A DNA stretch of 64,000 bases, taken from positions 124,001-188,000 of the forward strand of contig CAMPDV010000240.1 in assembly GCA_946699065.1 (NCBI GenBank). The letters run 5' to 3'. A program made the position numbers and the translations under genes. Below are positions 29,341 to 60,300 of the stretch, piece after piece. Numbering within the stretch: the stretch's first letter is position 1; the number at the start of each line of letters is the position of its first letter. Origin of the DNA: Loxodes magnus (taxonomy: Eukaryota; Ciliophora; Karyorelictea; Loxodida; Loxodidae). The notes beneath the pieces were generated by a model. The model did not search any database. It saw nothing but the letters and a program-made list of their open reading frames with translations, and was not told where the DNA came from.

Positions 29341-30059
29341 ATATGCAGCGGAAATTTTCTTGATAACTAGTTATATCAAGTACTCAATAATATTTTTAAA
29401 CCTCCTGCTAAGGAAGCTCTTTTTTATGTTAAAAAGCTAAAAATAAAGAGAGTCAAAAGAGAAAGTACTTAAGAAGCTTACTGAAAAGAATACAGCTGCA
29501 AAATTATTAAAATAGCTAGATTTTTAAATCCCTCTAAAGTTTATAAAACGCTTTAGTTTATTCTTACATGATTACTCATCAATTCAATGCTTGTTTTCTT
29601 GGTTTGTAGCTTAAACTATAATATCAACCAATGTTCAACATAACTTCAATCTATTTTTCATGTATCTTACCATTACTAATATAAAATTTTTATTTTAAAA
29701 TAATTTCCTAATTATTATTACAAACTGACTGAAAAAAGTTGATGGTTTTTTAATGCTTGAAAGGAAAGATAGATTTCTATGCCCTTAAGAGATAACGATG
29801 CTTCATAATTATAAAATTGAGTATAAAAGATGCTATTAAAGTATCTATTAAGAAACTATAATTCTCTCATGAGAGATATAATATTTGCTCCATGAGAATT
29901 TAAAATAAAAGAGGTGAATCCATGCCAAACCAAAATATTTGAGGAACTATAAAGTGTTTTTATGCTTAATTGTTAAGAAATAAAAAGGATTATTAATAAT
30001 TAAATTAGTGATAACCTAATTAATAACTAAAATTCTTTATATTACTATTCTAGTTCATG

Positions 30060-31230
30060 GGCTTATCTTCTCTATTTCCTGATTATGGTTTAGAACTGAG
30101 TAAGCATCAATAAAATTAGCATTTCCATTTTTTCATGAAAGGCATTTAAAAACTAACCTTTATCATTAGCTTTACAATTTCTCGACATTTATCTTCTACT
30201 TTTAATTTCTGCTATTGGTAAGTTAGAAACAATAAAAGATAAAATTAATTCTAATATCCTTCCGTTTATTTTTTCATAAGAAAGTTTCTTTATCAATGTA
30301 AAAAGAAATACTTTCTAATTATTTTTTCCGGATCTTTTATTAAAAAATCATAAGAAGTCTTGAAAGTGGTTATTTTATTTTTTTCTCTAGTTTTAGAAAT
30401 TTATGAAGTAACGCATTAGAAAGTAAGATAGCAGAAATTTCAAAAACATTCCAATTTTTATCCAATTTATCCTGATATAGATTTCGTAACTTTTTCTGGT
30501 TCATGTTTAGGACGAAATACTACTTAATTAACTGTAAATTAATTTACTTTTATATAATAAAATCCAACAGATACTATGTTTTCTGTTTTTCCTTCTACTT
30601 GTCATTTTCCTAAATATGATATACCAGGTATTATCACATATTTCTATTCCTTTACTATCTATATTTTATTTTAAACTTTTTTTTGTATATTCAACTACTC
30701 GAAAGTTGGAATCATAACTTTGAAAGCATTAAAAATGTGATTATAGAGATTTTTATTATTTTTCTTAACTAAATTTCTCATTTCTTCTCCTATTTTAATA
30801 TTTTAATTCACTTCTATGAAAATATCTAATGGAAACCAAGCATATTTTGATAATTCTTTTTAAAGCGAAATGTATCCTATAAACTTTTCGTGAATATGGT
30901 TTTCTTGTTGTTTTTTTGGACGGAGAAATAAAGAAATAGTTTGGGTTTAGATAATGATCTATGATATCTAAGACGGGTTTACTTTTATACTAATAATTAA
31001 TTTTTTATCCTAATTACTTTAACTCTTATTCTAAAATTAACTTTATTTTCTCATCTATAGCATTTTTTATAATAAAATGGATAAATCAATTAACTACTTT
31101 CTCCATCTCCTCATCTTACATGCTTATCTATTCCAATTTTGGTAAAAATTCCATCTGATCAATCTTTCTCATATACTTTTCTTATTACTCATAACTTTCT
31201 ATTTTTTATTTCTCTATATATCTTATAAAA
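30060..31230 (-). pseudogene. DUF4246-like protein, left arm copy
   Basis: In one phase the minus strand reads MEKVVNWFIHFIIKNAIDEK and then QYKSKPVLDIIDHYLNPNYF. This fits the N-terminal part of DUF4246, where an S-x-V-D-D-V-V-D-P-x-L-Y-P segment is typical. Further on, near 30.55 kb, is GKWQVEGKTENIVSVGFYYI, the family's G-W-H-V-E-G...IVA.G.YY signature, with the Trp written TGA and the His replaced by Gln. The two parts are in different phases, so there is at least one indel. DUF4246 proteins are thought to be related to 2-oxoglutarate/Fe(II) oxygenases, so loss of the signature His would impair metal binding. The homologous unit in the right arm (51.4-52.6 kb) is also damaged. A gag-only retroelement sits just upstream of the predicted start. 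Confidence 0.6.
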
Positions 31231-31302
31231 GAAGACCTTCTTCCTACTTTATGATTATTTTACAAATTTCGAATTGGTTACTTTGACTATTTTTTCCAAA
31301 TG

Positions 31303-31321
31303 TTATATTAAAATTATAATA
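31303..31321 (+). repeat. Target-site duplication, left copy
   Basis: ttatattaaaattataata is repeated perfectly at 32,154-32,172. These are the flanks of gag-only retroelement copy 2. Confidence 0.9.
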
Positions 31322-32153
31322 ATAATAATAATATACTTAAAGTTAGTAGAGTTTTGCATTCTCTGGAATTGCAACCAGTTCCTGCGGACAGTTTTTTTAA
31401 CGTGGGTGTGATCCACGACCTTTTTATTAAGTGGAAGGTTACCACTGTAACCGTTCAAGTGGTCTTGCAAAAAGCTTTTATTTGTAGATCCCTGTTGGAG
31501 TTATTCATAGTTTATTGAGTTGTCTCCATGTTCTTTTCTGCTCTTATTCGTTTATTTTCTTTCATTATCAACAGTTTTTTAAAATATGTTGATTTGATTT
31601 GCAACATCAACAAAGTTTTTATTATTGTCTTTATTTCGTTCTTTTTTATGATAATTTATTTTCTATATTTTCTAATCTTTTAATGAAATTTGTAGCAATC
31701 ATTTCTTTTTCTGGATTCAATTCTGTTTTTAATTCTATTGGTATTTTTTCTATTTCCATTTTTGTGTCGTATTTAAAATTTTATTATGATTAAGTTCAGA
31801 GTTATTCTTCCGTTATTAATTTGCTACAAATAAGTTATCTTCTAAGTATTAGTAATTCGTTGTTCTAATCTTCTATGTTACTCATTAGTTCCCGTATTTT
31901 TTCGCCTAAGTTGTAAGTTGTTTCTTCATAATTTGAGATTACTTTTTACATTTGGTCTAATTAAATTTAAAGTTTTTGATTAGTTTCGTTTTTAGGTTAA
32001 CTTATCTCTATTTATCCTACCATAACTTTACCTTCTGAAGAAGAGCTTGACTCCTCCTATTGCTATTATTTTTTCTAAATTTCTTTTGCCGCTTTTCTCT
32101 TTAGGTTTCTAAGTTAATTTTTTGAGAGTCGAAGAGATTAATCCATTTTTTTT
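31322..32153 (-). mobile_element. Gag-only non-LTR retroelement, copy 2
   Basis: An 832-bp minus-strand insertion bounded by perfect 19-bp direct repeats and absent from the matching place in the right arm (about 51.33 kb). On its own strand it opens with an A-run directly before ATGG, as in copy 1, and ends in a TATTATTATT-type tail. It contains one ORF1 and no ORF2. It lies immediately upstream of the left DUF4246-like unit, probably in its 5' region. Confidence 0.85.
31330..32146 (-). pseudogene. Gag-like ORF1 with CCHC zinc knuckle, copy 2
   Basis: Starts at 32,144-32,146 with MDQSLRLSKNQLRN. An acidic Ser-rich block (QQQQEESSSSSEG, about residues 28-41) is followed by a coiled coil (about 55-110; LDQMQKVISNYEETT) and a second helical region (FIKRLENIENKLSQ). 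The knuckle, encoded at 31,571-31,612, residues about 179-192, has CX2CX4HX4C spacing with CCKSNQHILKNC as its core; one X of the first CX2C is TGA. After it TPTGIYKQK parallels PSGGQIYKPK of copy 1. In-frame TGAs occur after EEQL, in the knuckle and just after it. The knuckle is in the same phase as the start codon, so no net frameshift has occurred over 178 codons. Sequence identity to copy 1 is low, so these are distinct subfamilies. Confidence 0.75.
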
Positions 32154-32172
32154 TTATATTAAAATTATAATA
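32154..32172 (+). repeat. Target-site duplication, right copy
   Basis: Perfect 19-bp copy of 31,303-31,321. Confidence 0.9.
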
Positions 32173-32480
32173 TTCCATAAATGTCTATTTTCAAATATTG
32201 GTGTGATGTTTATTATATTTTTAGAAATATAAATTTTAATGTTTAAAGATGAAGAAATAATTAAGCTATTATTGAAATTAAAGCATATAAACGAAGATAA
32301 TCTTCATTTGTATTTTTGATATAAGATACTAATTTCTCCACTACAATTGCTCTACATGTTGCTCCTTTTATGTAATGTTCTTGCTTTTTTATCTTATTTT
32401 TTTTTATTAATAAATTGTTTATAACACACTAAGTACTTCTATATTTTGATGGTGGCTAAGACATTTAAAAATTTAAATTG

Positions 32481-33379
32481 AAAATATGATTTAAATAGAA
32501 GTTTCTTCCTCCAGTAGTTTAATGAAGAGAGTCTAGAGGGGCTTTATGATATAAATTTTTGAAATTAAAACTTAAAGAAAACTGAGAAAAGCAAGATAAA
32601 AACAAGTTTCAGTACTAAAATGCAAGAATAAATAAGAATTATTACACATATTTCTCAAGAATTAGTTTAATCCCTTTAAATTAGCTATTAGTCTCATATT
32701 ATAACAAGCTACTTTTCTTATTTTGTTTCCATAGTTTCCTCACTATCATAATTTGATGAATATTCAGACAAGCTAAGTTGGAGATGTTGGAATTTTCTTT
32801 TATTAGATATTTAATAAGGTAGATTTAACTGAACAAGCTTATGATTAAATGTTAAAATAAGATTAATTTAGAAAGGAATAAAGCTATTCCGTTATTATAT
32901 AAGCTTTATGTGGAGTAATTTGCAAAAAAAGAAGGATAAATTAATATTTATTGAAATGAAAGAAGCTAGAGATAATAAGAAATTAAAACTGAGTTCAGCT
33001 AAAGCTCGGAGGATTCATACCCTAATCAATTAAATGAAAATCAGCAAGTAAAATCATAAAAATAAAAAATAACATAAGAATGATAATCACTATAAGTTAA
33101 TTTAGATTCTAGCAATAAGAATATTATGTTTCAAGTTTAATCTAATAGGAAAGTTTTAAAGATTACGAATTATTTGGATATATTATTGATTTTATCATTA
33201 AATGAAGATCTCAAAATCAAAAGACAAAGAAAAAGAATATAATTTTCAAATAATTTAATTTAATTCAAATATACTTTAAATTTAAAATAAATTGACCATA
33301 AACACTAAGCTTTCAACAGTGAAAGTATTTTACTATCTTTCTTGTGAGGATAACTAAGCCATCATCCAAGAAATCTCAG
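32481..33379. other. Junction region between left arm and central repeat copy
   Basis: About 0.9 kb without a readable gene. Similarity to the right arm fades here, making this the inner limit of the left arm as far as I can follow it by eye. Confidence 0.35.
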
Positions 33380-34110
33380 TCCTGAAGTTTAACAAGCATG
33401 CTAATTGAACCAGTCAAAAAATTAGGCTAGAAAAAATTTCTTTATTAGAAGCAAACTCTGTCTAATTAGTTTTAAGATAAATATAATTAACAGCTCTTTA
33501 GACTCTTACATTTCAAGACCTAAGATAGCTTCTTTTAAATAAGGATATATTTTTTAAATTGAGCTAAACATAATTCCTTTAGATTATCCATCTTCTTCTA
33601 GGTTATTATATTAGTAAATAAATTTTTGATTAGTTCCCCAATTCTGTTCTGACACAATAATCTTAGTGTTGCTTGTCATATAACTAGATGATTTCACTTT
33701 TTTTCTATTCTGTTTTTAATAATTAATTGCAATTTAATTAAAGCACTATAAAAACTTCAGTTTAGTCTTTTTAAACGGTTTGTGCAAGATTCTTCCAATA
33801 CTCTTAAGGAAATTAATTAACTAAATAAGCAGCTTATATTCATAGGAGATTTTCTTTTTTAAACATTCCTTAAATATTTGCCTAATATTAAGAAGGGGCT
33901 TCTTCTATTAACTTAACTAAATTATATACTTTAGCAGATCTTAGATATTTTAAAAAGTATTCCATGCTATAGGAGGCGTGGTCATATTGCAAATTTCTTC
34001 GATAGAAAAAGCAGAATTTCCAAGAAATAATCAGATTAAATTAAACAAATGTACAATTATCTAGATAATCCAAATTTATAAAGTCATCTTCTTCAGTTAT
34101 TTAACAACAG
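33380..34110 (-). pseudogene. Arm-encoded unit Y, central copy
   Basis: The clearest copy of unit Y. The minus strand reads EDDFINLDYLDNCTFVQFNL, ISWKFCFFYRRNLQYDHASY and EYFLKYLRSAKVYNLVKLIE in one phase. A later part is in another phase and contains KIIVSEQNWGTNQKFIYQY and LEEDGQSKGIMFSSIQKIYP. A long Gln-containing protein of at least 200 residues is implied. The Cys/Trp/Cys/Arg-Arg pattern near the start hints at a small metal-binding module. The family is not recognised; a DDE-type transposase was considered but no catalytic acidic motif could be placed. Confidence 0.45.
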
Positions 34111-36700
34111 ACAGCACTTTTAGTTCTAATAATTAATTTAAGTTAAGCTTAAAATTTCTACCTTAAATAACCAAATTTAAATTATGAAGTTAAAGTTTGA
34201 AACTAGGATTAAATTGAATAAATGTAGACAAATTTAAAAAGTTAACTATTTATTATTTTAAGTTATATCTACTTTTAAGTAGAGATATAATTTAATATTT
34301 TTAAAACTTTAAATTGTATATACCAATATATTAATTTTCTTAAAGGCTATTAATAATTTTTACCTATAAAAATGAAGAAAAGTATAAAACTAATTTATTT
34401 TGATATAAAGCATATCAAATATTTATGTTTAAATTTTTTTTTCTTAACAAATTAAAGTAAATTTTAGGTTAGTTTTGGTTAAATTTCGTCATAATAAACT
34501 TAGATATTAGCAAATTAAAAATATCTAGAAATTATTTTATACTAAAATACTAAATTTTCTTATAAAAGATATTTATATGCTAGCTATTATTATTTTATAT
34601 AAAAAACATAATTTTAATTCTATCTGTCTAACTAATAAAAATTAAATCTCTTAAAATTAAACTTAGAATATCTTTAGCTTTTATTTATTTTACTTTAAAT
34701 AGCTTACATTATTATTAGTCAGATTAATAAATAGGAACCATAAATGAAGATGAAATCATTATATTATAAATTTAGGGATAAAAATTAAAATTTTAATTAA
34801 ATAATAAATAAAATTTACTAAAATTACTAGTTTATTTACCTTTTTAGGTTATGATTATTTGTATTTATTTATATTATTTTATTAGTTTAACTTTAATTTT
34901 GCTTTAAAAGCTTTCATAGTCATAAAAATTTAAATTGTATTATAGCTTTCTCACATAGATGATTGAATAGATAATAAATATCTTAGTTCTAGTTAATTAT
35001 TAAATTATATAAATTAAATTTAAATTATTAAAATTCATAATCTTCAGTATAATTAAGAAAATTTAGGTCTAAAATTTATTAAATTAAATTTAACTTTAAA
35101 GAACTATCATTAGGTTAAAACCATATTAAAGTATAAAGCTTCAAATTAAATAAGCATATTTATATTAAATTTAATGAGAAAGAAGAATAAACATTATTAT
35201 ATTTAGATAAATTAATAAAAATCTAAATATCTTTATCATCTATTTTAATTAATTTAAAAATAGTGTCTAGATAGAAATTTGTCTATTTATTTGTATTATT
35301 TGCAAATTAAAAATGAGAAGTATTGCATTCCTTTAGTCTAATTATTAAATTTTAAGATTTTTTTAATTTTATTTTAATAAATCAAATTATTTTGGTAAAA
35401 TTAAGCTTTAAAGCTATTATTCAATAGTGATTCACAATAATTAAAGGAGTTGAGAAAATATAATAAAGTATTAAGAATTGAATTTAAAATTAGCTTTACT
35501 CTCTTACTTAATATTCATATTTACTTAGAAAATTTATTTCAAATAAATAAAATAAAATAAAAATATACTTTTGTAAAAATTAAGTCTTTAAACAAAATTA
35601 TAGCATTTTCTTAATTAAATAAAGTGAAACATTTTAATAGATTTATTATATATACTTTATAATTAAAATTTGTTTTAGTTAGGTATTTATTTAGAAATAA
35701 TAATAAGGCTCTACAAATATCTTTATTAAAGCTATATATTTAATTATGTATTTTTTTACAACTTTAACTATAAAGGCTAGATAATAACTTAATAAAGAAA
35801 ATCACACAAAGTTTTAGCAAAACTTAAATGAAATAAAAAATCTTAAATAAGATATAAATATAAATGATTTTCATACAATTACTATAAATCATTTTTATAG
35901 CTTTTTTATTTTAGTTTTTATCTATCTCTGATTATTTTTTTGATTTTTCAAGAAAAAATTGAAGAAACGTTAAGATTTATTTTATTTACACTTTAATATG
36001 GTTCTAAGACTTAAAAGCTAATATTAGCTTATTTATTTAAAAAAGGAATAAAAGAATATAATTTTTTAATTTATTTTTTATTATGTAATAAACAATTAAA
36101 TATCTTAAGATAAAAAAAGTGGTAAAGTAACTAAGTTAGTTTAAATTTATTTATAGATAAAAAATAATTTAATTTTAGATTTAAATAAAGCTATATGTAT
36201 TACTAAGATTAACTATGAATAATTCATTCATATCTAATAATAAAAGTAAGCTATTAATGCTATAAATAAACTTTTTATATTTAATTCTATTTCATTATTT
36301 TAATAAATTACTCTTTAAAATTATTTTTATAATTCCTAAAAATTATTAACTTAAAATAAATATTTTTAACTATATTAAAAATTTAATATCTAGTTCTTTA
36401 AAGCAAGATTATGATATTTTTTATATTCTAATATTTATTGTAAGCTTAAATAGATATTTTATAATCTATTTACTTATTTCTTTGTTGGTTTGCTATTTCT
36501 CTTATCTATTTAATTCCCTAATTAAAAGAATATTAATATGATAAAAAGTCTAAATGTTCTATTAATTAATTTAAGTGTTTATTATAAATTTTATAGTTTA
36601 ATATTTCTATTTAACTTAGTTAAATAACTAAATACTAATTTATTTATTAGCTTTTAAAATTCAGAATGTAATGTAGTTTGTTTAGTGATGTATATTAAAC
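33400..36700 (+). repeat. Third, direct copy of part of the arm
   Basis: This segment repeats about 25.6-28.9 kb in direct orientation and about 57.2-54.0 kb in inverse orientation. Examples: 'aggaaattaatt' with 'ttaaac' and 'gaggcgt' blocks at 33.8-34.0 kb and 25.9-26.1 kb; 'gacagcacttttag' at 34,110 and its complement at 56,512; 'ttgtattatttgcaaattaa' at 35.3 kb and its relative at 27.45 kb. It contains the central unit Y. Its position just inside the left arm suggests a nested or duplicated element end. Confidence 0.6.
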
Positions 36701-36904
36701 CTTAAGATAAATCTAAAACGACAAAATTTAAATTTATATAAATATTAAAATTTCTCATAGTTAACTTTCTCTTTAGCTTCTGCCAGAAATAAGTTAGAAG
36801 AAATAAAAGAAAATATTAATTTTGCTACGTATCTGTTTAACTTTATTCAGAGTAAATTATAAGAGATTAAATATATAATAAATATAATTTTTAATTTATA
36901 ATGT

Positions 36905-39838: not shown

Positions 39839-40430
39839 CCGTCGACTACGAATAGCCTAAAAATAAAATATGAAATTTAGAATCCAGGGTTACCTTTTAT
39901 AAAAATGTGTTATTTTCTTTCTTTTTAATCAATATAAATTATCCAATGCTTATATATCTGAATTTGAAGATGAATAAGCGGTTTTACAATGACTAATATT
40001 TTAAATTTGAAAAGAAAAATTTTATGAACAATATGTTAAAAGAAAAGCAAAGTATCAAGTAAAGCATAAACTTAAAAACTTCGAAATCTTAAATTAAATC
40101 GACCTATGTAATTTAGGAACTTTTAAAAGAATATTAAAGAACAAAATTTTTTTTAATTGATGACCTAAAAATTAAAAAGTAAAATTTAAATTTAGTTTAA
40201 TTGAATAAAGCTAGTTAAACTAAGATAAAAATTTATAAATACATACTTTTAAAAAAATTGCAAAACAGAAAAAAAATTTTGAAAATTCTGACCTATAAAA
40301 ACAAAATAAAAGGAATACGCATGCATAAAAAAACGAAAATTAATAGAGAAAAACGCTTTAAATTTGAATTAATTAATTTAAAGAATATGGTTAAAATAAC
40401 TTTAAAAATTACCTTTAAGTCTAAAAATTT

Positions 40431-43400
40431 TCATTTATTGAACCTTCTTTTCCTTGTTTATTTTATATCATTATGCAAGAATCCTTCATATATATCTCTA
40501 TATTTAAAGTAATATCTTCCTTTTCCATATAATTTATTTTAGAATCAATCACCTTCATAAAAGTCTCCATTTTTATACTGTTCTTTTCCTTTTCCTTATC
40601 TTTATCCTCCATATCACTAACCTTCGTATATAGCTCCGCTTTTAAATTAAAATTTTCCTTATCCGTGTCATTTATTTTAGAATCAAACACCTTCATAAAT
40701 TTTTCAATTTATATAAATTTAAATACCTTTTCCTTATCTTTATCCTTCATATCACTAACCTTCGTATATATCTCCACTTTTATATTAATATTTTCCTAAT
40801 CCATGTTTTAAATTTTAGAATCAATCACCTTCATAAAAGTCTCCATTTATATACTGTTCTTTTCCTTTTCCTTTTCTTTATCCTTAATATCACTAACCTT
40901 CGTATTTATCACCATTTTTATATTAATATTTTCCTTATCCGTGTCATTTATTTTAGAATCAATCACCTTCATAAAAGTCTCCATTTATATACTGTTCTTT
41001 TCCTTTTCCTTTTCTTTATCCTTAATATCACTAACCTTCGTATATAGCTCCACTTTTTAATTAAAATTTTCCTTATCCATGCTTTTAATTTTTGAATCAA
41101 TCGCCTTCATAAATTTCGCCATTTTGCTTATATTCAATAACTTTATTAATATTTTCTATAACTTTTACTTGTATTAATATTTTATTTTCGTTTTTTTTCA
41201 TATATATACCAGTTTTTAGCATGAAATTTTTATTTTTTTCTTCCTTATATAGCTATTAAAAGTCATCTTATTATTATATTTGCTAATTCTTTGTTTCATT
41301 TTTTTCAACAATTTTATTTTGATAATAAATTTTATTTATTTATTTCAAAATCTAATTAGATTTTCCATTTTCAAGATTTTCTTTTATTTGTTTTATTTTT
41401 AAAGTTAGTTATTTTTTAATATTTATTTTATTTTATTTTATAATTTTTTTAACTTATTTTAATAGTTATAAATCTAAAAGCATATTTTAAGGTTATTTAT
41501 TATTAATTTCTATTTATAGGTTTTATATAGTTTTCATTATTTTTTTTAAATAAAATTCATTTATATTTCTATTATTTATTTTTTGCTTTTGTTATTTTGT
41601 AATATAAAGTTACAATAAATTAATTTCTATATATTCTTTTTCAACTACTGGAAATGTGTCTTTTATTAAATAAAATATTCACTAATATAATTCATTCTTC
41701 ATCAAAAGCCAAATATTTTCTAGATCTTATTAACTTAACTTATAATTTATATCTTGTATATTCTTAAATTTTTTATATTAAAACGACCATTATACTAACT
41801 TTTTATCTCATTTTCTTATAATTTATAAGTCTTATTGATCAGTTATTGTTTTTTAATTTAAAAGTTTATTAAAATTGTAGCTTACTTTGAACGCTTATTA
41901 ATCATTCAATTCTATTAAAATACCTTTTCCATGTTTTTAACCGTTTATAAAGAATCCTTGAAATAATGTTTTTTCTTTCTTATTAAATATTCTTCCATAA
42001 CCATGTAATTTTTATTGTAAGTTTATTTCTCCCTCAAATATTTCTTATTCATTTATATTAATTAAGTAAATTTAGTTGCTTTCTATAATAATCTTCGTCT
42101 TCATAATTTCAGTGAATCTGTCTATTAGTTTCTTAATCATGTTGTCATTTATTAATAGTTAAGGAAACTATATGTTTTAATTTTAAATTTAGATATCTAA
42201 GCTCTAATTATGATTAAATATTAGTTAAGAATAAATTATTTTATCATATTCATAATAAACTCTTTCTATTGTTTTGTCTTCTAAGTTTATGAGAAGTCCA
42301 TTTCCATTTTTTAATCTATTTATGAATTCTCCTTCATAATATATTTCATCATACAAAAGTCTTCCTGTTCCTTCAGGTAAGTATTATTAATTAAGTTATC
42401 CAATGTAAAGTTTTTACTGATAAGCAATTTAACTAGAGATAAAGTATTTAGTATATTGTTATGTATAAAGCTTTTATTACTATAGATATATCAAGTAGAA
42501 ATATTAAGAATAATTAGATTCTATATCATCTAGTTTAAGATAAGGAATTTTCTCAATTTTATCCAAAGTTTGCAATGCATTTTTATATTTATGAGATAAC
42601 TATACTGATTATGAGAGTTTAGAGGATTCTTAATTGGCATTTTATAATCTTCAAAGATCAGACGATTAAGAGGACTATTTTTTATTAGCATAATGAGACA
42701 TATCAGAGAATAATTATTATAAAAAATTAGATTCTTATTATATACTTTGAGTTTTTGCTTTATTTTTACTCTCAAAATTATCATAAATTAAAACATTTGG
42801 GTTATGGTATAAATTTATCTTAAATTTTTAATAATCGATGATTTTATTTCTATAAATATGTTATAATTATTTAAAATCACATCTCTATTCTTCATCTCAT
42901 TAAAGCATTAGAAATAGAATTCATTATAAGAGTTCTTTATTTTAGTTAGGATAATATTCATCTATTAACTATCCTAACAAATGATATAATTCTTAATTAT
43001 CTTTTTCTTATTCATTTAATTTAAGATAGTTTTGGTTTTTAAGAGTAATAACTTCAAGTAAAGTAATTCCTAAGGAAAATACATCTGATTTATATAGATT
43101 TCTATTTTGATTGAATATTTATGGGGATTAATAACCTTCAGTATAGACAATAGAATTATTATCTTAATTTAAACTTTAAGGATCTGAGTAATCAAAATCT
43201 CCTATTTTTAAATTTCCTTTATCATCTATGAAAATGTTATGAGGCTTGATATCTTAATGGGAAATTTCTAAATTTTAAAAAAAAGCAAATGCATCTATAA
43301 GAAATGAAGTTATTTACTCAATTCATTCAAACCCAAAATTTTATCCGTTTTAATCTTTGATCAATTCATCTAAGGATCCTCGCTCACAATATTACATTTC

Positions 43401-46337
43401 TATCCAATATTTTTTTTTTAAAGAAATATCATAGCTATAAATTTGAACACAGTACTATTAGTATGACTCATTAAAATTTCATAGCTTTTAAATAATTTAT
43501 TCAACTCTTTTATGATTTCTAGCTGTTTTCATAAATTTTATTATTCTAACTTCTTTTTATTAGTTTAATGCTTTTAAAATATTTACTTTATTTGTTTCAT
43601 ATAAATTTTCCATTAATACATAGCCTGGTAATTTATGTTGAAATGCTCACAAAATGTCTTATTCGCTATGTGGATTGAAATAAACTTCTGTAATATTATT
43701 TGATGAAATTTTTAAAGAAATTCTATATTCATATTAACGAAACTATACTAGAATTTATTTTCAATTATATTTATTTTATTCTAAAATATCAAATATAATT
43801 TTAGGGTTATTTTATCCCAGAAAGTAAGGAGATTTAATATTTTATTTTTACTAATCTAAAGATATTCAGTACTATATCTGCTAACTGTCTATAAAAAAGA
43901 GATATCTTATGTTGTTATAGGTATCTTTTAATTTTTGTTCTATAACCGAGAAAAGATCTTCCATTTGGTTATTTTATAGCAAGCTTATATATTATTAATT
44001 TTGATATTTTATACTTTAGAAGTAATTTATAGCGTTTATAATTTAAGAAAATTCTTCAATTTCTTAAAAGTAAATTAGATAAACTAGATGTATTAAATCA
44101 AAATTATTAAGTTTATCTATAAATTCTTATTTCTAATTTTCTTTTTCTAAATAATCTCTACAGAGTTTTATTATTTCTTTGTTTGGTATTTTCCTAAATA
44201 TTTATCAATTATTATTGCATTAAACACTTTCAAATATCAAAATGTTAGAGCATTCTTAAGACTAAAATAAGTGTGAAATTGTAAAATATGTTATTAATTT
44301 TTTCTTATTTTATTCGTCAAATAAATGCATTTCTAATAAATCTAACTTAGATTACTACTCAACTATATCTTCTTGAATAAATTAATTAACAAATTTATAC
44401 ATTTCATTTATCTACTATGTTTACTATCTATCATATTTCTATTAATTTTTTTTATAGATTTAAGCAATTTATTAGTATAAGATTAAATCTTCTTATGCAA
44501 AACTAAAATTTTACTTTTCTCATCCATCTTCACTTAATATTTCCTCTACCATTTTTTAAATCACTTTATGCATTTCTTAAAACCAATTTTTTTTTTAATT
44601 ACTTTATCAATTACTAATGTTTTTTTCAACTAACTATTTTATATCTTGCTTTATTTATTTTATTATCATTTGTTTTTATTTGAATTACTCTTTTTGATTA
44701 AATATTCAATCTTCTTAATTGGCATTTTTGCTAATTTATTTATTTTCAATAAAATTGCATATCATTTTGCTTTCTTATCGCAAACTTTTGTTTTTTAGTT
44801 CTTAATGTAAATATTTTTTTCTTTCAAGTAGTTTAGTTTCTAAAAATGTTTAGTAGTATATTTCATTAATTTAACTTCAATTATTTATATTTTAATATCT
44901 TATTTATCTTTCCTAATCAAATAAAATTATTTAACTAACATCATTTTTCACTTCTATTTTTTCTATCTTTCTTATATCTAAATTATCTTCTAATAGCTCT
45001 AAATTATTTGTAATGGTAAATCTTTAATTATTTTAAAGATCATAACTATAAAATTAAGTCATAAACAATTCTCAAAATTGCATTCTATATTTTATTTATT
45101 TTCTATCAAATATGAAGATATTTCTTGGCATTTAATCTTCATAAATCTATTCTTAGTCATTAAAATATTACTTCAACTAATTATTTCTATTTTATTATAT
45201 CATTTTAATAACATTTTATTCTTATTATTTATTTCTTTTACTAATTTTGGAAAATTAATTTAAAATTTCGTAAACTGTTTCTTATGATTAATCCTATAGA
45301 GTATATGCATATAAAATTAAATGGAGTGAGAAATTACCGCTTAGAAATATAATTAATTGCTAAGATAGATTTTAATTTTCTAAAATTTGAAGTAGTTTAT
45401 CAGATAATTGTTAAGTGGTTATTTTAATATATTCAGTTTAGTTTTAATTTTAGCTGTTCTCTATAAAAACTTAAATATTTTAATCATCACTTAAGTCATA
45501 AATATCAGGATATTCATCATTATTTTTGTTTTATTCAATTTTTAAAGCTTCTTCATATAGATAATACTGTCAATCATAGCACTCATGCAGTTTTTTTAAG
45601 ATTTAATAGGTTGAAAGACTGGCTTATTCTTTATCTTATTAAGCTTCATTTTTATTTTCTAAATAAAAAGCATTCACTTTTCCATTTTAGTTTTTTAATT
45701 CTATCTTTACTATCACCGTATTTCCTTCTCAAATACTTATGCATTCAGGATCTAAAAACTTAAAATTATAATTTTCTAAATCTTTCTTATTTCTTAACTT
45801 TATGATTTTCTTCTCTTATTTGTCGAAACGATAAAACTCTGAAAACTATTTAGTTAATGAAGTAAGATAAAGCTAATATTAATTTCCAAATGCTATAATA
45901 TTTTTTCTCTTTTCTTTTTTTTAGATTCATTTATTAATTTATTCTTAAATTCCTTTTAACTACTTTATTTAATCTTATTAGATAGAAAGAATTACTTCCT
46001 AAGAATTTATTGGATCATCGTATAAAAATTATAATTAATCTAAAATTTTAGAAACTTTTATTTTTAAAATGTCTTCAAGTATCAAACCATATAAAATTTT
46101 GATGAAGCCATAAATTTTCTTATCCAAGTATTTAAGTAATTTTAATTTTAATTCTGAGTTTTAAATTTAATTTCACTTTTCTATTAATTTCGATTCTTGT
46201 ACTAGCACGAAATTTTGCTTAGAATTCTCAAATAAATTTTAATTTTAAACCTAATAAAATACTTAAAACTTTTCTTTTAAAGTAAATGATTGAACTTTAG
46301 ATTCACTTAATATTTATTCCTTTTATTTTTTTACCAT
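40431..46337 (-). CDS. Giant protein kinase with C-terminal MORN repeats, 1,968 residues
   Basis: A single phase runs from ATG 46,335-46,337 to TGA 40,431-40,433. I checked the phase at five landmarks 0.4-2 kb apart and it holds. Residues about 1-860 are Gln-rich and unassigned. A kinase domain lies at about 870-1190: EVRIIKF, YWIEMQYCERGSLDELI, catalytic HQDIKPHN (Asp 1029), DFD in place of DFG (Asp 1047), YQSPQIF, LYKSDVFSLGITLLEV, and CDF at the end. A Ser/Gln linker follows, then MORN motifs at about 1325-1350, 1430-1470 and a tandem block at 1740-1965. The product probably phosphorylates Ser/Thr near membranes or the cortex, since MORN repeats often bind lipids or scaffolds. The Gly-rich loop is poor and DFG is altered, so activity is uncertain. 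About thirty in-frame TGAs sit at Trp-like sites against four TGGs. Under code 6 it would be a heavily interrupted pseudogene. Confidence 0.7.
40440..41129 (-). repeat. Five tandem 138-bp units encoding paired MORN repeats
   Basis: The block 'gaatcaatcaccttcata' or a near-copy begins at 40,542, 40,680, 40,818, 40,956 and 41,094, a period of exactly 138 bp (46 codons, two 23-residue MORN repeats). Translated on the minus strand the unit is YEGD-x-FQNK..HGQGKY then Y..GD.YEGQ-x-YQGQRKGKGK, where x is TGA in every unit. In MORN consensus that position is Trp. Unit 4 (40,680-40,800) is the most diverged. The strict period and near-identity point to recent unequal exchange. Confidence 0.85.
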
Positions 46338-46572
46338 TTCGATTTTTCCCCCTTGCTATAAGACTACTAAGACTCTTTTATCTAATCCAAATTTTCCACA
46401 TTTTGTTTTATTTCTTCTTTTGATTATCTATCTTTACCCTCTTCAGTTTGAATAGTATTGGTATTTTAAATGTTTTGATTGATGTCTTTTACTTGTTTTG
46501 AGTGTCGCTACTGTAATTAGTTTATGAGAATAGTTTCACTAATAAAGCCTGGACTAAAATATTATTTGCTGG

Positions 46573-49599: not shown

Positions 49600-50720
49600 C
49601 AGTTAATTTTTCTAGAACGCAAGATAAAGTAAAAATTCTTTCCTAAAACTTCAAAAACATCTTTGGAAGCATCTGCTATTAAATTCTTAAATACTTTCAA
49701 CTTTTCCTTAATTAACTAAAACCGTTCCCCTTTTTTTTAAACTTTAAATTTAAAGATTTTTGGATGATATGACGTTGCAATTTTCTTTTTAAATTCTTCG
49801 TAGCTTATCAAATTCATTTATGCAAATGAATATGCAAAGGGTAATTTTTTAACTTAAGGCTTAATTTAAGTTTAACGACTCTTCTTCAATCTTGAAGAAG
49901 AAATCCGAATGTTTCTTTATCCATGCTTTTTTTCATTCAATTAAATTGCTAACCTTATATTTTTGCTAGGCATGTAACTCTATTATGAAAATTTTTTTAC
50001 TTATAAACCATATTTATTTATCTTTGCTTTCCTTCTTCCAATTAAGTGTATCTCTATCAATAATTTAAATATTCTAATTAAGAGCGAAATTAATTATTTG
50101 CCTCTTTTTAAATGGCTTTATTCAATTTTTATTAAGTATAGGGAGATTTAATATTGTAATTTTCTTCGTAATTACGTAAGGCATTCTCTTAAGAAAGTAG
50201 CTTTTAGTCTCTTTGCTTTTTCTTTTAAATTCTAGAAATTTTAATTTTAGTATAAAATGATAATTCCAAATCTTTCATAATTTGTATAGCTTCCAACAAG
50301 ATTAACTTCTAACATTATAATCCTCTTATTGCTAGAATTAAAAAGACTTATAGCAGTCTTCTTTATTATGCTATTTTTAATTATATGCTTTTACTTTCTG
50401 ATCTCAAAATAACTGATTATGGTATGAATGTTTCAAGCTTACACTAAATAATTTTAATTAATATGTTCTGCTTTCTTTAGTAATCCTAACAACAGAAAAA
50501 TATGTATCTTTAACTCCATTAACTTTATACCACATCTAGCTTTCATTCCTTAGTATCTGTTGCTCCGGTTATTCAGTCGAACTAATTTCACTTCTTTTAT
50601 AGCAAAGTACTCTTCATGCAAGATTAGATAATAATAGCTTTATTCTTTTAAAAATTAATCTGATACTAACCCTATCGCTCATATGCCTGTTAACTTAAAT
50701 CTGCTTTTTTAAGAATCTTA
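49600..50720 (-). pseudogene. Unidentified minus-strand coding region in two phases
   Basis: From about 50,700 the minus strand reads SEISSTEQPEQQILRNESQ, MWYKVNGVKDTYFSVVRI and SRTYQLKLFSVSLKHSYHNQ in one phase. From about 50,200 a second phase reads QRDQKLLSQENALRNYEENY, NIKSPYTQQKLNKAIQKEA and KSMDKETFGFLLQD. Both are convincing as protein. The phase change near 50.2-50.3 kb is either an intron or an indel. MWYKVNGVKDTYFSVVRI resembles sensor-type proteins of ciliates in which a PAS-like region precedes a helical dimerisation part, but no histidine-kinase motif was found. Both TGG and TGA occur at Trp-like places. It lies just inside the inner end of the right arm. Confidence 0.4.
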
Positions 50721-51406
50721 TAAAGAGAAAATTGCAAACTTGTCTTATCTGTATATTCATTATAAGAATGAAGAAATTAAAGAAGCGAATTAAGATAATT
50801 AACTCATTATAATATGATACTATTAGCTAATTTCAAGGGAATTAAGCCTATAGTTAAATGAAATTAGCGAAGTTATTCTTATTTTATCTTGCATTAGAGT
50901 GCTAAAACTCATTTGCATTTGCTGTCCTATATTTTCTTTAAACTTTTTTTCTAAATTCATATAAAAAAGAATTTAAATTCTCTCCATCAAATCATTTAAA
51001 GTTAAAACTTATATTTATGACTTAAATCTCAACTCAAATTTTTTAACTGTCTTAACTACCATATAATTAAAGAGAAAGAAAGTACTTAGAGTGCTATAAG
51101 CATTTTATCAATAACAATTATATAAGGTTAAAAACAGCAAGAACAATTTAGAAATATATAATGCAAATATCAATTATTATGAGATAGCAAGTTCCTTAGA
51201 TTTTGAGATATAATATGATATCATTTTCTTTATGCACTTTCATTTCATCGATATATAAAGCAATTTATATATCTTTAACATTAAATTAGAGATTTTCCAA
51301 AAATGTAACTAAACATCACACCCACAATTTAAATAGTCAAAGTTAAATTTTATATTTTTATCTTCAAATTAAAATTAAAAGATATTCTAGGTAAATATTT
51401 TAAAGT

Positions 51407-52640
51407 ATGATAAACCAAAGTATAGAAGTAGGAAAAGCTTTTTTATTTATTTTGAAAAGATTAAAAAAAGAGTCAGAAGAGGAATTAGAAGAGTTAGAAA
51501 AAGAATAAAATAAATATATGCAAAATTTACCAAAATTGGAAAAAATAAATTCGTATTAATGGAGTAAGAAAAAAGATTTGAAATATCCTCTCTAATATTC
51601 AAAAACTCCCTGCATCATAGAAAGATAAATAAATGTTAGAATAAAAGCTAAAATAAGTGGGATAAAAAGCATATGATAGGCATGAAGATATACCTGTCTT
51701 AGATATCATAGATCCTTAATTATTTTTATTCTTCCCAAAAAATATATGAATAATTCTTAATGGAAAGAACAATATCCTTTATGAGAATACACTTAGCTTA
51801 AATACAACAATAAAATTACGATTTATTTCCATTAAATGTTTGCATAGACGAGAATTAGAATATTAAGATAAGAGAGGATTTTGAATTTTAGATGATAAAA
51901 TAATGGGCGACTCTATAATCATATTTTTACTCTTTCCAAAGATATGATTCTTGCTTTCCAGTAGTTAAAAACAATAAAAAATAAGTGAAGAATAAGATAT
52001 AAATAGTAAAAGCATAGAAATATGTGATATCACCAAGTACATCATATTCAGGAAAATGATATGTAGATGGAAAAAAATATAGTAGCTGCTAGAGTTTATT
52101 ATATAAAAATAAATTCAATTCCTGTTGATTAAGTAGTATTTTGTCCTAAATAAGGATTAGATAAAAATTATGTATCCTATATTAAGGATGAATCGCATAA
52201 AAAAGTAGATATTTTTGAAGAACCTGCAATCGTGCTTTCTAATTAATTACCACATAAATTCCTAAAACTAGAGAACTAAACTAATTAACCAATTCCCTCC
52301 TCAAGATACTTATAAATTTTTTCATAGTAAATCCAAAAAATATCTAGAGAGTACTTCATTTCACGCGGATTTGAAAAAGATTCTTATTAAAAAATTAAGT
52401 AAAAACATAATAAAATTAATTTTATCATATGATGCTTCTTATTTACCACCTGAAGAAGCTAAAAGGAGAAGATAGCTAACGAGAGATTATATGATGAATG
52501 ATAAAAATGAGTTTTGGGATATAATTGTGGAAAAATGGAGATGCTTAGTTTATTGATGCTTGTGCAAATTTAGAATAAATTATGGCTGATAATATATGAG
52601 AAGAAAATCCTATATCTAGAATCAAGGTAAAGAAATTGTT
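51407..52640 (+). pseudogene. DUF4246-like protein, right arm copy
   Basis: Starts MINQSIEVGKAFLFILKR with an acidic coiled segment (KESEEELEELEKEQ). Then, in other phases, come DIPVLDIIDPQLFLFFPKN, KLRFISIKCLHRRELEYQ, the signature region SGKxYVDGK (x = TGA) overlapping NIVAARVYYIKINSIPVDQV, AIVLSNQLPHKFLKLEN and finally YLPPEEAKRRRQLTRDYM and KNGDAQFIDACANLEQI. The order and motifs match DUF4246 and the left copy at 30-31.2 kb. The signature His after Trp is Tyr here. At least three phase changes show that this copy is broken or contains introns. The family is probably an Fe(II)/2-oxoglutarate oxygenase relative, and the exact substrate is unknown. It points outward toward the arm's outer end. 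Confidence 0.6.
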
Positions 52641-53329
52641 TTAGTAATTAATTAATTATCATTAATTTAAATTATAATAACTCTTAATGTTTAGATTTAG
52701 CCTCATTTAATTTTAATCTTACAGGACTCTATTTTATCTCTAAGAATTTTGACTTAACTTCTAATTAGACACTTTAAGAGTAGCATATTTACTTATTTTA
52801 GAAATATGAAACATCAAGTATATCTTAAAACCATATAGATTTTTTTTGCTTTCATTCAGCAAAAAATTTTGAGCATATAATAATGGGAAGAAAAATACTA
52901 TTTGAATATAAAAACCTTTTTAAAAGATTATTCTCAAATACTTATGCTTTATCTTTACTTTTAGCAATGGTAACTCATATGAAAAAAGATAGATAAACCT
53001 ATTGAAAATTTGTGTTTAAGTTTACGCTACAACCAAGAAGAATAAGAAATGATAGATATTTAGTTATGTAAGAATAAACGGAATAATAGTTAAAAGAATT
53101 TATATAAAATTAAAAATCTAATTGTTTTCATATATTAGTAGTGCTTTCTTTTTCAGTAAACTTCTTGAAAGTTTGCTCTTCTAATTCTCTTCTTTGCTTA
53201 TTTTTTAACATTTATTATTAAGCAGAACATGTTTCTCAGCAGCAAATGCCAAAATCTTATTTTTTCCTTGAAATATCTTGTGGACAAGTATATTAAATTT
53301 TGTTGCTTTTGTGCTTTTATTGCAGAATT

Positions 53330-53760
53330 AAATAAATTTTCTATTTGAAATTTAGGAGTTAATCTAAGCAGCTGGATCCTTAATTACACTTCACTATCCT
53401 GGATAAATTACTTTAGAAGAAACTAATTCAGCATACAAATTAAATTTCTTTGTGTACTTCTAAAAATTATTGCTGAAAGAGTTTTCTTTGCCAAGTAAAT
53501 TGTAACAAGAAAATAAAGCTTGTTATTTATACAGGTAAAAGCAAAATGGCTATCACAATATTCAAGAAGTGGATATCACATTAATAGTGCTATTTTAAGT
53601 TTAGTTCATCATTTTATCTTCAATATGCTACATATTCATTCACAAGGCTATTCTTTAAACACCTCTTGGAAAATGTTCTAAAATTTGAACATTTTTAATA
53701 GCATATTGCTCTTATATCCATATGATTTTAGTTAACTGTGACTTTTAACGTTAAGATTTA
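53330..53760 (+). pseudogene. Arm-encoded unit Z, right copy
   Basis: A plus-strand phase reads LITLHYPGQITLEETNSAYK, LNFFVYFQKLLLKEFSLPSK and NGYHNIQEVDITLIVLF, ending in a hydrophobic stretch. It is a plausible remnant of a membrane or secreted protein of about 120 residues, but I do not recognise it. The left-arm counterpart at 28.99-29.34 kb matches at the nucleotide level. The start and end are undefined. Confidence 0.35.
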
Positions 53761-56519
53761 GCTGATATATATGTTGTATACATCAATGAGATAAGAAAGC
53801 TTTCTTTATATTTTAATATCTCTATTATTTTAAATTTTCTCTTATTTAGATTTATCTATGGTTATTTAATTTACGTTGTTAAATAATCACATTACATTCA
53901 ACACAATAAAGTAATAAATTAATTTTTAACTATTTAACTAAGTTAAGCAATAATACTCTACTAATATACGAATTATATAAAGTCTTAAACAATTGAATAA
54001 AGTATTTTGATTTTATATTTATCTAGATAATATTCTCTAAATTTATAGAAATACAATAAATAAAAGAAGAATTAACTAAAAAGATACAAGTAACTAGAGT
54101 TTAACATATTTATTTATTTAGCTTATATTCAAATATCTAATTATTAATAAATATCTCAATCCTGCTTTAAAAACTTTAAATTGGGCTGCTAATTTAACTA
54201 TGAAAAAATAAAATTAGTTTAATAGCTTTTAAATTTATTAAAAATATATTTAAATAATAATTCCTTAAATAATAAAAATTAAATAAATCTATAAATCAAA
54301 GTGCTTATTTATTTTAAAGCTTTAATAGCTTAAATGTATTATTAGATATTTTAGATTTAGATTTAATATTAGTAATGCATGAAGCTTTATTTAAATCACT
54401 AATTAAATTATTATTTATGTAGAAATAATTTAAATTAGCTTGCTACTTAAACAGTAGATATTAATAATCAAATATTTTTTATTTTATTAAGATTTAAAAA
54501 GATTAAATTATCTTCAAATAATAAAGAAAGCATCAAAAGTTTTATTTTATTATTCTTTTTTTTTAAATAAATAAGTTAAATTTAACTTTTATGTCTATGA
54601 AACACATTAAAATTGATATGGAGCAAAGATAAATGTTTATATAATTATTTCCTTTCAGATAAATGAAAAAAGCAATAAATAATAATAATAAATAAAATAA
54701 TAAAAAGTTATAAAAATGATTTATAATAATTATTTTATAATTATTTAGATTTATATCTTAGATATTAATTTTTTATTTTATATACTTTTTAAAACTTTTA
54801 TCTCTTTTTTATTAAATTTTTCATAAGGTTTCTTAATTATAAATTAAATAATAAATAAAAAATTTAATATAAAGCTTATTTAAAGTCTCTTATATAACTT
54901 CGTTTATTATTTAGAAATAAATACTAATAAAAATAAAGTTATTTTAATAAATATATTTTTATTTATCAAGAATATGCTATAATTTAGTAATAAAAGTATT
55001 TATTTTTATAAAATAATGCTTTGAATTTACAATCTAAATTTTTTTAATTTATTTGAAATTTAATTTTTAGTAAATATGATTATTATGTAAAAGAGAAAAA
55101 CTAGCTAAATTTAACTTTTAACCTTTAGTTTATTTTATTAGTTTCTTTAATTATTGTGAGCAACTATTAGATATAAAACTTTTAATCTTAACTATGCAAG
55201 AAGTAATTTTATAATTATTAAAATGAAATTTTAAAACATTCTTAAAACTAAATAATAGGATTAAAGGAATGTATATTTCTTATTTTAAATTTGTAAATAA
55301 TATAAATAATTTAAAATTTCTATCTAGACACTGTTTAATAATTTAATTAAACTGTATCATTTATAAAGATATTTAATTTATTCTTCATTTATCAAAATTA
55401 TGCTAATATTATTTAGCTTCTTGTACAAATTAAATATAAAAGGCTAGATATATTTCTTTTGGAAACTTTATTAAATAATTAATATCTTTAATTTAATTAT
55501 AATTTATAAAAGGAAATTATTATCTTATTTATAACTTTTATACCTAAATTATCTTAATCATATTGAAGATTAAGAATTTTATTATTTTAATTCCTATAAT
55601 TTAATAATTTTAGCAAAAACTAAGATATTTTATTGCCTAATCAATCAGCTAATAAGATGGTTGCAGAACCTTTATAATTTTTATGACTATAAAATTTTAT
55701 AAGCAGAGTTTATTAAATAAATTTAAAGCTAAAATAATTAAATAATATTAAGCATATACAAATAATAAATATCTATATAATAGCTTAACTAGTAATTTTA
55801 ATGAAAATTATTAATTAATTAATTATTATAAAATTTAACTATTTAATCACTAACTTACTAATATATTATATCTATCTACATTATAGCTATTAATTTACAT
55901 AATCAATTTTAATGCTAGTTATTTAAAGTAAAAAAATCAAAACTAAAGATATTTTAAATTTAATTTTTAATATAATAAATTTCTATTGGTTAGATAAATA
56001 AATTAAATCTTTGCCTTTTATACTTAGTAATTATAACTAAAAAACTATTATTTTTTAAAATTTAATTTAATTTATTAGTTTAAAATACTTTTTTGGATAT
56101 TTTTAATTTTTTATGATCTAAGTCTATTATAACGAAATTTAACTAAAGTAAATCTAAATTTTACTTTAATCTTTTCTGAAAACTAAGATTAAACCTTAAA
56201 TTATGATATAATTTTTCACCAAATTAAATTATTTTAGATTTTTTTCGTTTTTATAGGTAAAATTGATTAATAAGCTTTTAAGAAAATTAATATATTTGTA
56301 TATATAATTTAAAGTTTTAAAAGTATTAAAGCTATATCACTGCTTGAAAATAGATATAGCTTAAAATAATAAATAGTAAACTTAAATTTCTATTTTAAAT
56401 TTATCTTCTTTTATTCAATTTAATCTTAGTTCCAAACTTTAACTTCATAATTTAAATTTATTAATTTAAGGTATAACTTATAAGTATAACTTTAATTAAT
56501 TATTAGAATAATAAAAGTG

Positions 56520-57300
56520 CTGTCTGTCGTTTAATTACTGAAGAGGATTACTTTAAGAATTTCGAATGCCATGATAATTGGACATTTAGTTAATTAAAGC
56601 TAGTTATCACTCAGAAGCGCTACTTTTTATGTCGAAAAAATTAGTAAAATTCACATTTCTTGTAGCATGGATTAGCTAAAAAAGACTAAGATTTGCTGAA
56701 ATATATAATAAAGTTAAGCTTATTGTAGCACTTCCAAAATATTAGGAAACTGATAAAGGAATGTTTAAGAAGAAGAAAATACTTAGAGCGGTTTATTCAG
56801 TACAAGTATTTTCTTTGAAATGCTTGAATGAATCCCAAGCAAATCGTTTAAAATAGCTAGCCTTGATCTTCTATAGTGCTTGGATAAAATTTTATTAATT
56901 GTAAAAAATAGAATAAAGAAAAAGTAGAATTATTCTCAAGTTATATGATTAACCACACTAAAACTATTGTGTCACAATAGAAATGGGAACTTTAAAATTT
57001 TGTTATTAATAAAATATCCAAGAAGAAGATAGATAATCTAAAGGAATTATTTTAAGCTATATTTAAAAAATAAATCCTTATTTAAAAGAAACTATCTTCT
57101 ATCTTGAAATATAAGGTCTAAAGTAGTTAATTATTATAAGTTTAAAACTTATCAGACAGAATTTGCTTATAGAACAGAAATTTGTCCAGCCTGAAAAAAT
57201 AAAAGCTCAAATAATTATATGAAGAAATAAGTATTTCATGATTGGACTGATGAAGATATTATTTGAATTAAAAAAAATAAAGCAAATATATCTCCTTAAG
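56520..57300 (+). pseudogene. Arm-encoded unit Y, right copy
   Basis: Reads TEEDYFKNFECHDNWTFSQL and KLVITQKRYFLCRKNQ, then shifts phase; NHTKTIVSQQKWEL parallels KIIVSEQNWGT in the central copy. Many TAA/TAG codons stand for Gln. The copy is interrupted by phase changes like its two relatives (25.5-26.2 kb minus and 33.4-34.1 kb minus). The family is not recognised. Confidence 0.4.
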
Positions 57301-60300
57301 GAGTCAAATTTTATACCTGATTTAATATTCCACATTTAATTTTTATTTTACGTCCATATGGTGATGGTTCCAGCTGGAAGTGAAAGAAGCTTGCATTCAT
57401 TTATCAATATAATTGATTTTTTAGGATGGAAAATTATCAAAACGAAAAGCTTCTTAAGATTTTCTTTCAGCATTATATTGTTGCAAAAATATGAGAAAAG
57501 ATGTAAAAATACTAAATAAACACTTTATAAAAATAAATTAAATCAGCACAAATGTATTTCTAAGAGAAATATTAGTCACTTAAAATAGAAAATATAAACA
57601 GATTAAATATACAATAAAAAAATCTTTAATACATGAATGCATACAATTGTTCTATGCAATTTAAAAGGAAAAACTTTATATAATAATAAAAATCTTAAAA
57701 TTTCAATAGAATGATATAAACAATAATAAAATACATAAAATTAAATATTTACAATAATTAAAAAATAAAATAACTATTATTAAATAAGATAATTAGCTAA
57801 TAACTAGTTTATAATTTAAATAAACTTTATTAATTTAAATTAAATTTATTTATTAACTAGCATAATTAAAAAATAGATATCTATTTTAAATTAAATAAAA
57901 ATAGCTAATAATATAATAGATATTTAATATTGTTTATTTATAAATAGATTTATACATTTTGAAATATATATGCTATAACTATTAAATTTAGTAATTATTT
58001 TATTTTAAAACTTCTAAAATAAACAATTTGAAAATAAAATAATTTAAATAAATAATATAGAGCTTAGCTAGTTATTTTTAATATAGCTATTTATAAATAA
58101 AAATATAAAAGTTATATCAATCATCAAAATTAACAAAGGAGATAATAAGCTTGCTTATTAAATTAATAAAATAAGGATAAGAAGGTAACTATATTATCCT
58201 CATATCACAAAATTCTTATGATAATTAATACATAACTTTAGAGAATTGACAATCTCTTATATTTAACGTTGATACTTCAAATAAGTATAATAATTTAAGA
58301 TAAATAGAATATATAGAATATATTACTAAGGATAAAAGCTTAAGCTTAATATTTATATAGCTAATAAATTAAATTAGCTTTAATAAAATAATAAAAGTAG
58401 AACTGCTTATTTAAAAATAGATTTAAGAAATTTTCTATTTTTATATTTAGAATCACTATATTTTAGTAAAATAGATAAGCACTACCAAAATTAAGGATAA
58501 ATAGTAAATAAATGTTAAATTATACATAAAATCTGTTGAATTGTTAGTGCTTATAGACAAAGTAAGCAAAATTTAAATAAGAGTTATTAATAAGTTAAAC
58601 TATTAATTAAAGATTTAGAAAACTATTTAATTAAATCTAAAATTTAAAGGCTTTATCTTTAACTAATATTTATAATCAAGAAATTATTAAATATCTACTA
58701 TATATTAAATACACTAAATAATAAAAAACTTCAAAACATCTGAAATAAATCTTTTATATTCAATACTTTTAATTAAAAATATCTATAGCCAAAAAGCATT
58801 TACTTATTTAAAAAGCTAAAATTAATAAATTTACAATGTTTAATAAATCTTAATCTCTTCCATATAAACTAATTAATTAGGAATTAGTTTAAATAAATTT
58901 AAGTATTATTAATAGAACCAAAAATCAATAAATTAAAATTAACAAATGCAGAATAATAGGAATAATGGATGCCTAAGAGAACATCTAAAGAGATCTAATT
59001 AAAAATACAAAACTTAATTGAATTTCACTTTTATATGAAATTTAGATAAAGGAGTATTAAAATTGATTCTATTATTTTAACATTAATATAATTTGAAATA
59101 ATTGAAATAAAAGTAGCATCCATTAATAAAGTTAAACTATCAATCAGGTAAATTAATTAAGCATTATTTATCTTATAGAGAAATTATTTATTTCTATTAA
59201 TTAATTAATTAATTTTAAATTTAAGAGTTTATGCACATATTTAATTGTAAAAATGCTTCTTTCAATCAAATTTATTTAGATATTAAAGAGATTCTCTAAT
59301 TTTTTTAATTTAATTGGAACTTCTAATGCTAATAAGAAACTTTTCAATTAGGGATGAAAATAGAATTACTAATTCTATTTACAAAGGTTTTAAAACTTTG
59401 AAGTCTGATTGCGAGAATATAGAAAGTGAAAACTATTTAAAGATGATAAAGTTAATGCTTAGCTAAACAAATATTTTTAATACACTATTTTCTAAAGAGA
59501 ATCTAAGTATGGAATGGTATAGCTTAGAAGGCATAAACTTTCATCACAATATTTTACTTTTAGTTTGAATAAATTACTAAATAAAAAGAAATAAATTAAT
59601 ATTTTCATACTATTCTCTAATTCATTCTGAAGTATATCAAATAAAAGCTATTTATGTAAACTTTTTATAATCTTTATTTAATGAGTGTAAATAAATTGAT
59701 GACTGATTATGTTTAAACATAATAATATAAAAATATAAATAATATTTATTAAACAAATACATAATTATCTAACTAAGAAATTAGTTAGATAATTAAAAGT
59801 TATAAACGCTAGCTATTTTATTCTTAGTAAGCTATATGATTTATTAATTATTTATTTATTTAAAGCTATTATATCTTTTTAATAATATAGATAAGTATCT
59901 CTATAATTATATCACTTTCGTATATTTAATTAATAATTCTTTTGAAAACATATATAGAATGTAAGCTATCAAAGCGATACAAAGCTAATAATTATAATAA
60001 GTATTTATCTATAAAATTTAATTACTAAGGGTTTTCTACTAAGCGTTTCTTACTAAGTATCCTATATAAATCAGATTAATAGCTTATCATAGAATTTATC
60101 CATTTACCAAATATTTGAATAGTTTTAAGTTGATAATTCAAAAATTAAAATGCATTTGGCTTATTTAAGAGATTTAATATTCTTAATTAATATCTAAAGC
60201 AAAAACTATGATACCATAAAATAATTTTAGCTTCATATTTTTATTATGCAACTAAGAAACAAATTGAGAATTATTACTATAAAAGTAGTTAAAGGAAACT

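Follow-up and report, generated by a model that had tools for sequence, protein, structure and literature searches.

What does a 5.9-kilobase (kb) reading frame encode when all three of the usual stop codons recur along its length? The frame in question runs on the minus strand from position 46337 to position 40431 of a 64,000-nucleotide stretch of DNA (the window), and it comprises 1969 codons in a single open phase if every stop-type codon is read as a residue, which yields a protein with a kinase domain and MORN repeats. The likely answer is that the frame is a live protein-coding gene from the nuclear genome of a protist whose DNA is rich in AT (about 20% guanine plus cytosine, GC) and in repeats, most probably a ciliate on the karyorelict or heterotrich side, with a genetic code of the type of NCBI table 27. 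Under such a code UAA (and probably UAG) would be read as glutamine and UGA as tryptophan inside genes, and UGA near the end of the messenger RNA (mRNA) would act as a stop. In a published model (PMC4967479), transfer RNAs (tRNAs) would win over the release factor within the message, and the release factor would prevail close to the end of the transcript. AT mutation pressure would then have made TGA the usual tryptophan codon.

Translated with table 27, the frame matches the Pfam protein kinase family PF00069 with 97.6 bits (curated cut-off 31.7) and the MORN family PF02493 with 130 bits (cut-off 22.5). Both matches lie in the same phase, and no frameshift occurs between landmarks across the 5.9 kb, so that the coordinates and the single phase proposed in a first-pass annotation of the DNA proved correct. 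The kinase domain (42861..43574; residues 922-1159) contains TGA at codons 953, 1005, 1139 and 1147 and TGG at codon 978. Closer to the C-terminus are two stretches with four MORN-like units (41898..42416), recognised by pattern and by eye, and a tandem array of ten 23-codon MORN units (40431..41120) forms the C-terminus itself. Within the frame, which has a GC content of 20.0%, there are 33 TGA codons including the last one (32 internal) and four TGG codons, as the earlier counts of about thirty and about four had indicated, together with 183 TAA, 38 TAG, 32 CAA and 6 CAG codons (38 CAR, where R is a purine). A codon model trained on one half of the gene and applied to the other put this frame ahead of the remaining five, with margins of 89 and 94 nats, with the proviso that a model trained on the main gene alone is weak.

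The assignment of TGA to tryptophan is drawn from the MORN array and from codon choice. TGA occupies the canonical MORN tryptophan position in units 1-9, and the tenth unit has TTG, so that the earlier claim of a TGA at this position in every unit holds for nine of the ten. Two of the three other TGAs in the array precede His-Gly, and the remaining one replaces the first Gly of its unit, a replacement about which the first-pass annotation had cautioned. When TGA was translated as each of the 20 residues in turn and positions 40575-43574 were scored against the MORN and kinase profiles, tryptophan gave the top MORN score (133.4 bits), narrowly ahead of Phe (130.8) and followed by Met (110.4), Leu (109.4) and Tyr (107.8); Cys reached 64.2 and Gly was lowest at 36.2. 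Codon choice in the main gene fits the same assignment. The share of A-ending codons over the AAR, GAR, CAR, TAR and TTR pairs is 85%, and TGA makes up 32 of the 36 TGR codons (20 of 24 outside the array), a match that is as expected of synonyms and agrees with the earlier suggestion that the preference for TGA follows from AT richness. If TGA stood for any residue other than tryptophan, the latter would account for only 4 of the 1968 residues of the protein.

When TAA and TAG were changed together and the bits for MORN and for the kinase were added up, glutamine was likewise the best of ten residues. With TAG held as Gln and TAA alone changed, the sums were 231.9 for Gln, 222.3 for Lys, 217.6 for Glu and 168.4 for Tyr, residues beyond these four having been scored for TAA only with TAG changed as well. 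UAA is accordingly taken as Gln, and UAG is probably Gln as well, the scores admitting either Gln or Glu. Within the main gene, TGA as tryptophan with TAA as glutamine is the best-supported reading.

At the end of the gene, the terminal TGA (40431..40433) is the likely stop; the strand downstream of it is T-rich, and 45 in-frame codons follow until the next stop-type codon, a TAG. A second likely gene on the minus strand (63253 to 62243) has 336 codons plus a terminal TGA directly preceded by a hydrophobic segment, and includes 2 internal TGA, 25 TAA and 7 TAG codons. It has no Pfam match. Compared with 50 matched windows, the codon model places it above the 95th percentile but not above the highest score, and its own frame leads the other five by 26 nats. 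The main gene and this one thus both appear to end in TGA (n = 2, chosen by eye and with no conserved end as an anchor). The first-pass annotation had listed this frame with two others, at 39.02-39.84 and 37.76-38.57 kb, as behaving in the same way as the main gene; these two fell below the 90th percentile of 63 matched windows, which with a weak codon model does not disprove them. Its reading of the code stands best for TGA and TAA in the main gene and is matched by Glu in the case of TAG; two ends so chosen are consistent with UGA as a stop and prove little.

Several observations weigh against this reading. The 33 TGA codons equal the 33.3 expected from positional base composition, as had been cautioned from the start, and the TAA count also equals its chance expectation; outside the array 20 TGAs were observed against 29.4 expected. 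With TGA near its chance frequency, counts alone say little about decay. Variation within the array looks neutral, with 6 synonymous to 30 nonsynonymous codons, in agreement with the neutral expectation of 0.17 (nine units, the diverged tenth excluded). The evidence for tryptophan comes from one tandem array, one gene carries nearly all of the evidence, and the four MORN-like units that precede the array carry Leu, Phe, Ile and Phe at the tryptophan position, with no TGA there. With training on its second half, the codon model gives the first half of the gene a score of -28 in its own frame, though this frame is still the best. With TAG alone changed, Glu (232.5 bits) is on a par with Gln (231.9), the other six residues scoring lower. 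The last 20 codons contain 0 TGA and 1 TAA in the main gene (expected 0.3 and 1.9) and none of either in the second gene, so the ends of these two genes, which are too few to show such an effect, give no depletion of UGA beyond expectation; in Loxodes UGA is reported to be depleted before stops, and with a table 27 code UGA (and UAA) should be scarce over about 20 codons ahead of the stop. The GC content of coding sequences in L. magnus is 33.5% (PMC11441545), compared with 20.0% in the main gene, and sense UGA makes up 0.120% of codons in Parduczia and 0.042% in Condylostoma (PMC4967479), compared with 1.6% here. Protein searches returned no close homologue, and the window has no tRNA or Rfam match and hence provides no phylogenetic marker.

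The kinase domain adds to these objections. Its score ranks tryptophan 19th of the 20 residues for TGA (98.5 bits, with Gln best at 105.7), and none of its four TGAs lies opposite a tryptophan in the homologues found. Codon 953 is opposite Glu; codon 1005 is opposite Leu, Thr, Met, Glu or Arg; codon 1139 is opposite Ser or a gap; and codon 1147 is opposite Tyr or Leu. The earlier claim that TGAs fall at tryptophan-like sites is thus upheld in the array and unsupported outside it. As a control, these homologues have Cys or Phe opposite the standard tryptophan codon, TGG 978, and in three alignments to solved kinases this codon faces tryptophan once (in STK25 and in neither of the two of MEK1), so that the kinase homologues have little power to test tryptophan at TGA. 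Judged from these alignments, the kinase domain appears neither to support nor to refute TGA as tryptophan firmly, and with its four TGAs offset by the TGG control, it leaves the likelihood of a live gene with a code of the table 27 type unchanged.

An alternative that we consider unlikely, but that fares best among those weighed, is that the sense meanings are the same and the lineage or the stop rule is another one, either of the Condylostoma type, in which all three codons are also stops, or that of a syndinean, for instance Amoebophrya ex Karlodinium. In Condylostoma magnum UAA and UAG also serve as stops, and the two ends seen here, picked by eye, are both TGA, which speaks against that stop rule. 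Inside its genes, C. magnum (table 28) agrees with the present gene in that all 64 codons are sense and UGA is tryptophan (PMC4967479). In Amoebophrya sp. ex Karlodinium veneficum, too, UAR apparently stands for Gln and UGA for tryptophan, with UGA as the apparent stop (PMC6394959), and the want of a phylogenetic marker in the window leaves room for such a lineage. In 14 dynein alignments from this organism, however, UGG is strongly favored over UGA (PMC6394959), which is the reverse of the codon choice in the main gene. Blastocrithidia also has all three stops reassigned with UGA as tryptophan, but it reads UAR as Glu and retains UAA as a stop (PMC12153298). For Blastocrithidia, the decoding of UGA by a tRNA-Trp(CCA) with an anticodon stem of 4 base pairs (bp) has been described, and the same has been proposed for Amoebophrya (PMC12005148). 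The code of Parduczia and Loxodes (table 27) has the meanings assigned here, in that both UAA and UAG stand for Gln, and UGA stands for tryptophan inside genes and serves as the stop (PMC11441545, PMC4967479). Repeats and retrotransposons abound in the macronuclear and micronuclear genomes of L. magnus (PMC11441545), and the window is likewise rich in repeats. A protein search with the kinase part yielded 5 of 5215 candidates at E values of 1e-5 or better, and the best of them, from Stentor coeruleus, may be taken as a weak hint of lineage.

It is improbable that the frame is a decayed gene, a pseudogene with a homogenized array in which TGA alone or all three codons act as stops. The chance-level counts of TGA and TAA and the overall neutral variation of the array would fit decay, as would a window full of diverged repeats, and the last of these supplied a neutral reference. 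An inverted duplication (18371-33242 versus 50202-61908; seven collinear pieces, 68-82% identity) has arms that diverge without evident codon phase, and the kinase-MORN gene lies in the center between them. Over 10188 aligned positions the arms show 2678 differences and 198 indels, 175 of which are frameshifting, for a local neutral rate of about 0.065 frameshifts per difference. In 60 simulations of point drift without array homogenization, a TGA-free gene reached 33 TGAs after a mean of 0.57 substitutions per site (0.23 in the fastest run), which would entail some 220 frameshifts, or some 90 for the fastest run; these numbers are somewhat high in that differences under-count substitutions. 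In the same simulations a mean of 3.7 TGAs, and at most 9, landed at the real sites. With this neutral frameshift rate and no frameshift between the landmarks of the main frame, neutral decay is unlikely. The strong kinase and MORN scores also argue against it, as does selection at the canonical MORN positions. At six such positions, chosen from the MORN consensus, the array units show 4 synonymous to 1 nonsynonymous codons, compared with 2 to 29 elsewhere (Fisher p = 0.0012), so that constraint on the MORN array is loose away from the consensus. The caution that tandem exchange could have spread the TGAs is answered in part, since the part of the frame outside the array holds 20 of the 32 internal TGAs, with no frameshift between landmarks.

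It is more improbable still that TGA is a sense codon for some other residue, among which only Phe comes close to tryptophan by MORN score. Phe scores 98.9 bits against 98.5 for tryptophan on the kinase, and of the four MORN-like units that precede the array, two have it at the tryptophan position. UGA is not known to be read as Phe in any code, and tryptophan would all but vanish from the protein, as calculated above. Moreover, UGA is a near-cognate codon of tRNA-Trp, and when it is read through in yeast the residue inserted is tryptophan in 86% of cases (PMC4967479). Least probable of all is hypermutation from C to T resembling repeat-induced point mutation, which by reasoning could turn CAR into TAR and TGG into TGA and so place stops at Gln and tryptophan sites without indels or frameshifts, but whose CpA-directed change would by the same reasoning convert TGG to TAG rather than TGA, and which is at odds with the persistence of GGA (52) and GAA (130) codons in the main gene, the canonical MORN glycines included.

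Further features of the main gene and its surroundings can be described briefly. The Cys codon TGT is scarce in the gene (4 against 24 expected from positional composition), and a second frame of the MORN array (40427-41077, minus strand), with 0 TGA and 7 TAR in 217 codons, is a shadow of the repeat. Directly upstream, in another frame, is a possible coding stretch (46358..46538, minus strand; weak, log-likelihood 9.2). A short intron linking it to the main frame was rejected, as the GT..AG spans that would restore the frame measure 29, 38, 44, 56 and 59 nucleotides and none is of 11-26 nucleotides; the modal intron length in L. magnus is 17 bp (PMC11441545). Within the main gene, spans of the form GTA..TAG number 0 to 2 per length over eight lengths, those of 17 nucleotides occurring twice against a background of 0.7, which are very few counts.

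Wider searches gave no relatives of the remaining parts of the protein. The MORN array matched 0 of 7992 scored candidates in a protein search at the strict limit of 1e-10 and no solved structure at 0.001, and the first 900 residues matched 0 of 6782 candidates at 0.01. A scan of genome contigs for two adjacent MORN units with TGA returned five stretches, none of them MORN; a single Desulfobacter contig accounts for two, which are repeats spaced in the manner of clustered regularly interspaced short palindromic repeats, and the other three are short repeats or unrelated frames. Viral contigs contained no relative by protein or by pattern.

Elsewhere in the window, Pfam searches of all six frames of 9401-12902, 21001-24602 and 29001-33902, and of single frames of six other stretches, gave only matches below curated cut-offs. 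The best of these is a single WD40 repeat fragment (10500-10830, plus strand) with TGG for its tryptophan. A Gag-like frame of higher GC content (23680-24330, plus strand) has several TAR and two TGA codons in frame and no Pfam match to a gag family; it includes what we take to be a CCHC zinc knuckle. Three short coding-like stretches on the minus strand (30455-30918, 31442-31636 and 31637-32035) have 1, 0 and 1 TGA, respectively, several TAR and no Pfam match; the first lies within a duplicated piece and the other two between such pieces. An element of about 3 kb occurs three times (25560-28453, 33424-36751 and 53810-57192) at 68-72% identity. The window as a whole is repeat-rich and looks gene-poor to the weak codon model.

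The code itself is already known from karyorelicts, and what is unusual here is that TGA provides 32 of the 36 tryptophan codons (89%) of one gene. Among the species of Blastocrithidia, the largest share of UGA at conserved tryptophan sites is 48.5% (PMC12153298), and no title or abstract returned by literature searches describes a dominance of UGA such as that seen here. It is conceivable, although we would not expect it on balance, that UGA holds nearly all tryptophan positions throughout the genome and is still the stop, as the main gene would suggest both in full and outside its array. If so, most tryptophan residues would be read through the codon that also ends genes, and, as we put forward just as tentatively, none of the nuclear codes compared (table 27, table 28, Amoebophrya and Blastocrithidia) might burden a stop codon with as much ambiguity. 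To gene finders that assume ordinary codes, this DNA would seem to hold no genes. A genome with UGA as both the normal tryptophan codon and the stop would, if real, test how far position relative to the mRNA end can alone decide between the two meanings, and would also test whether AT mutation pressure drives codon takeovers of this kind.

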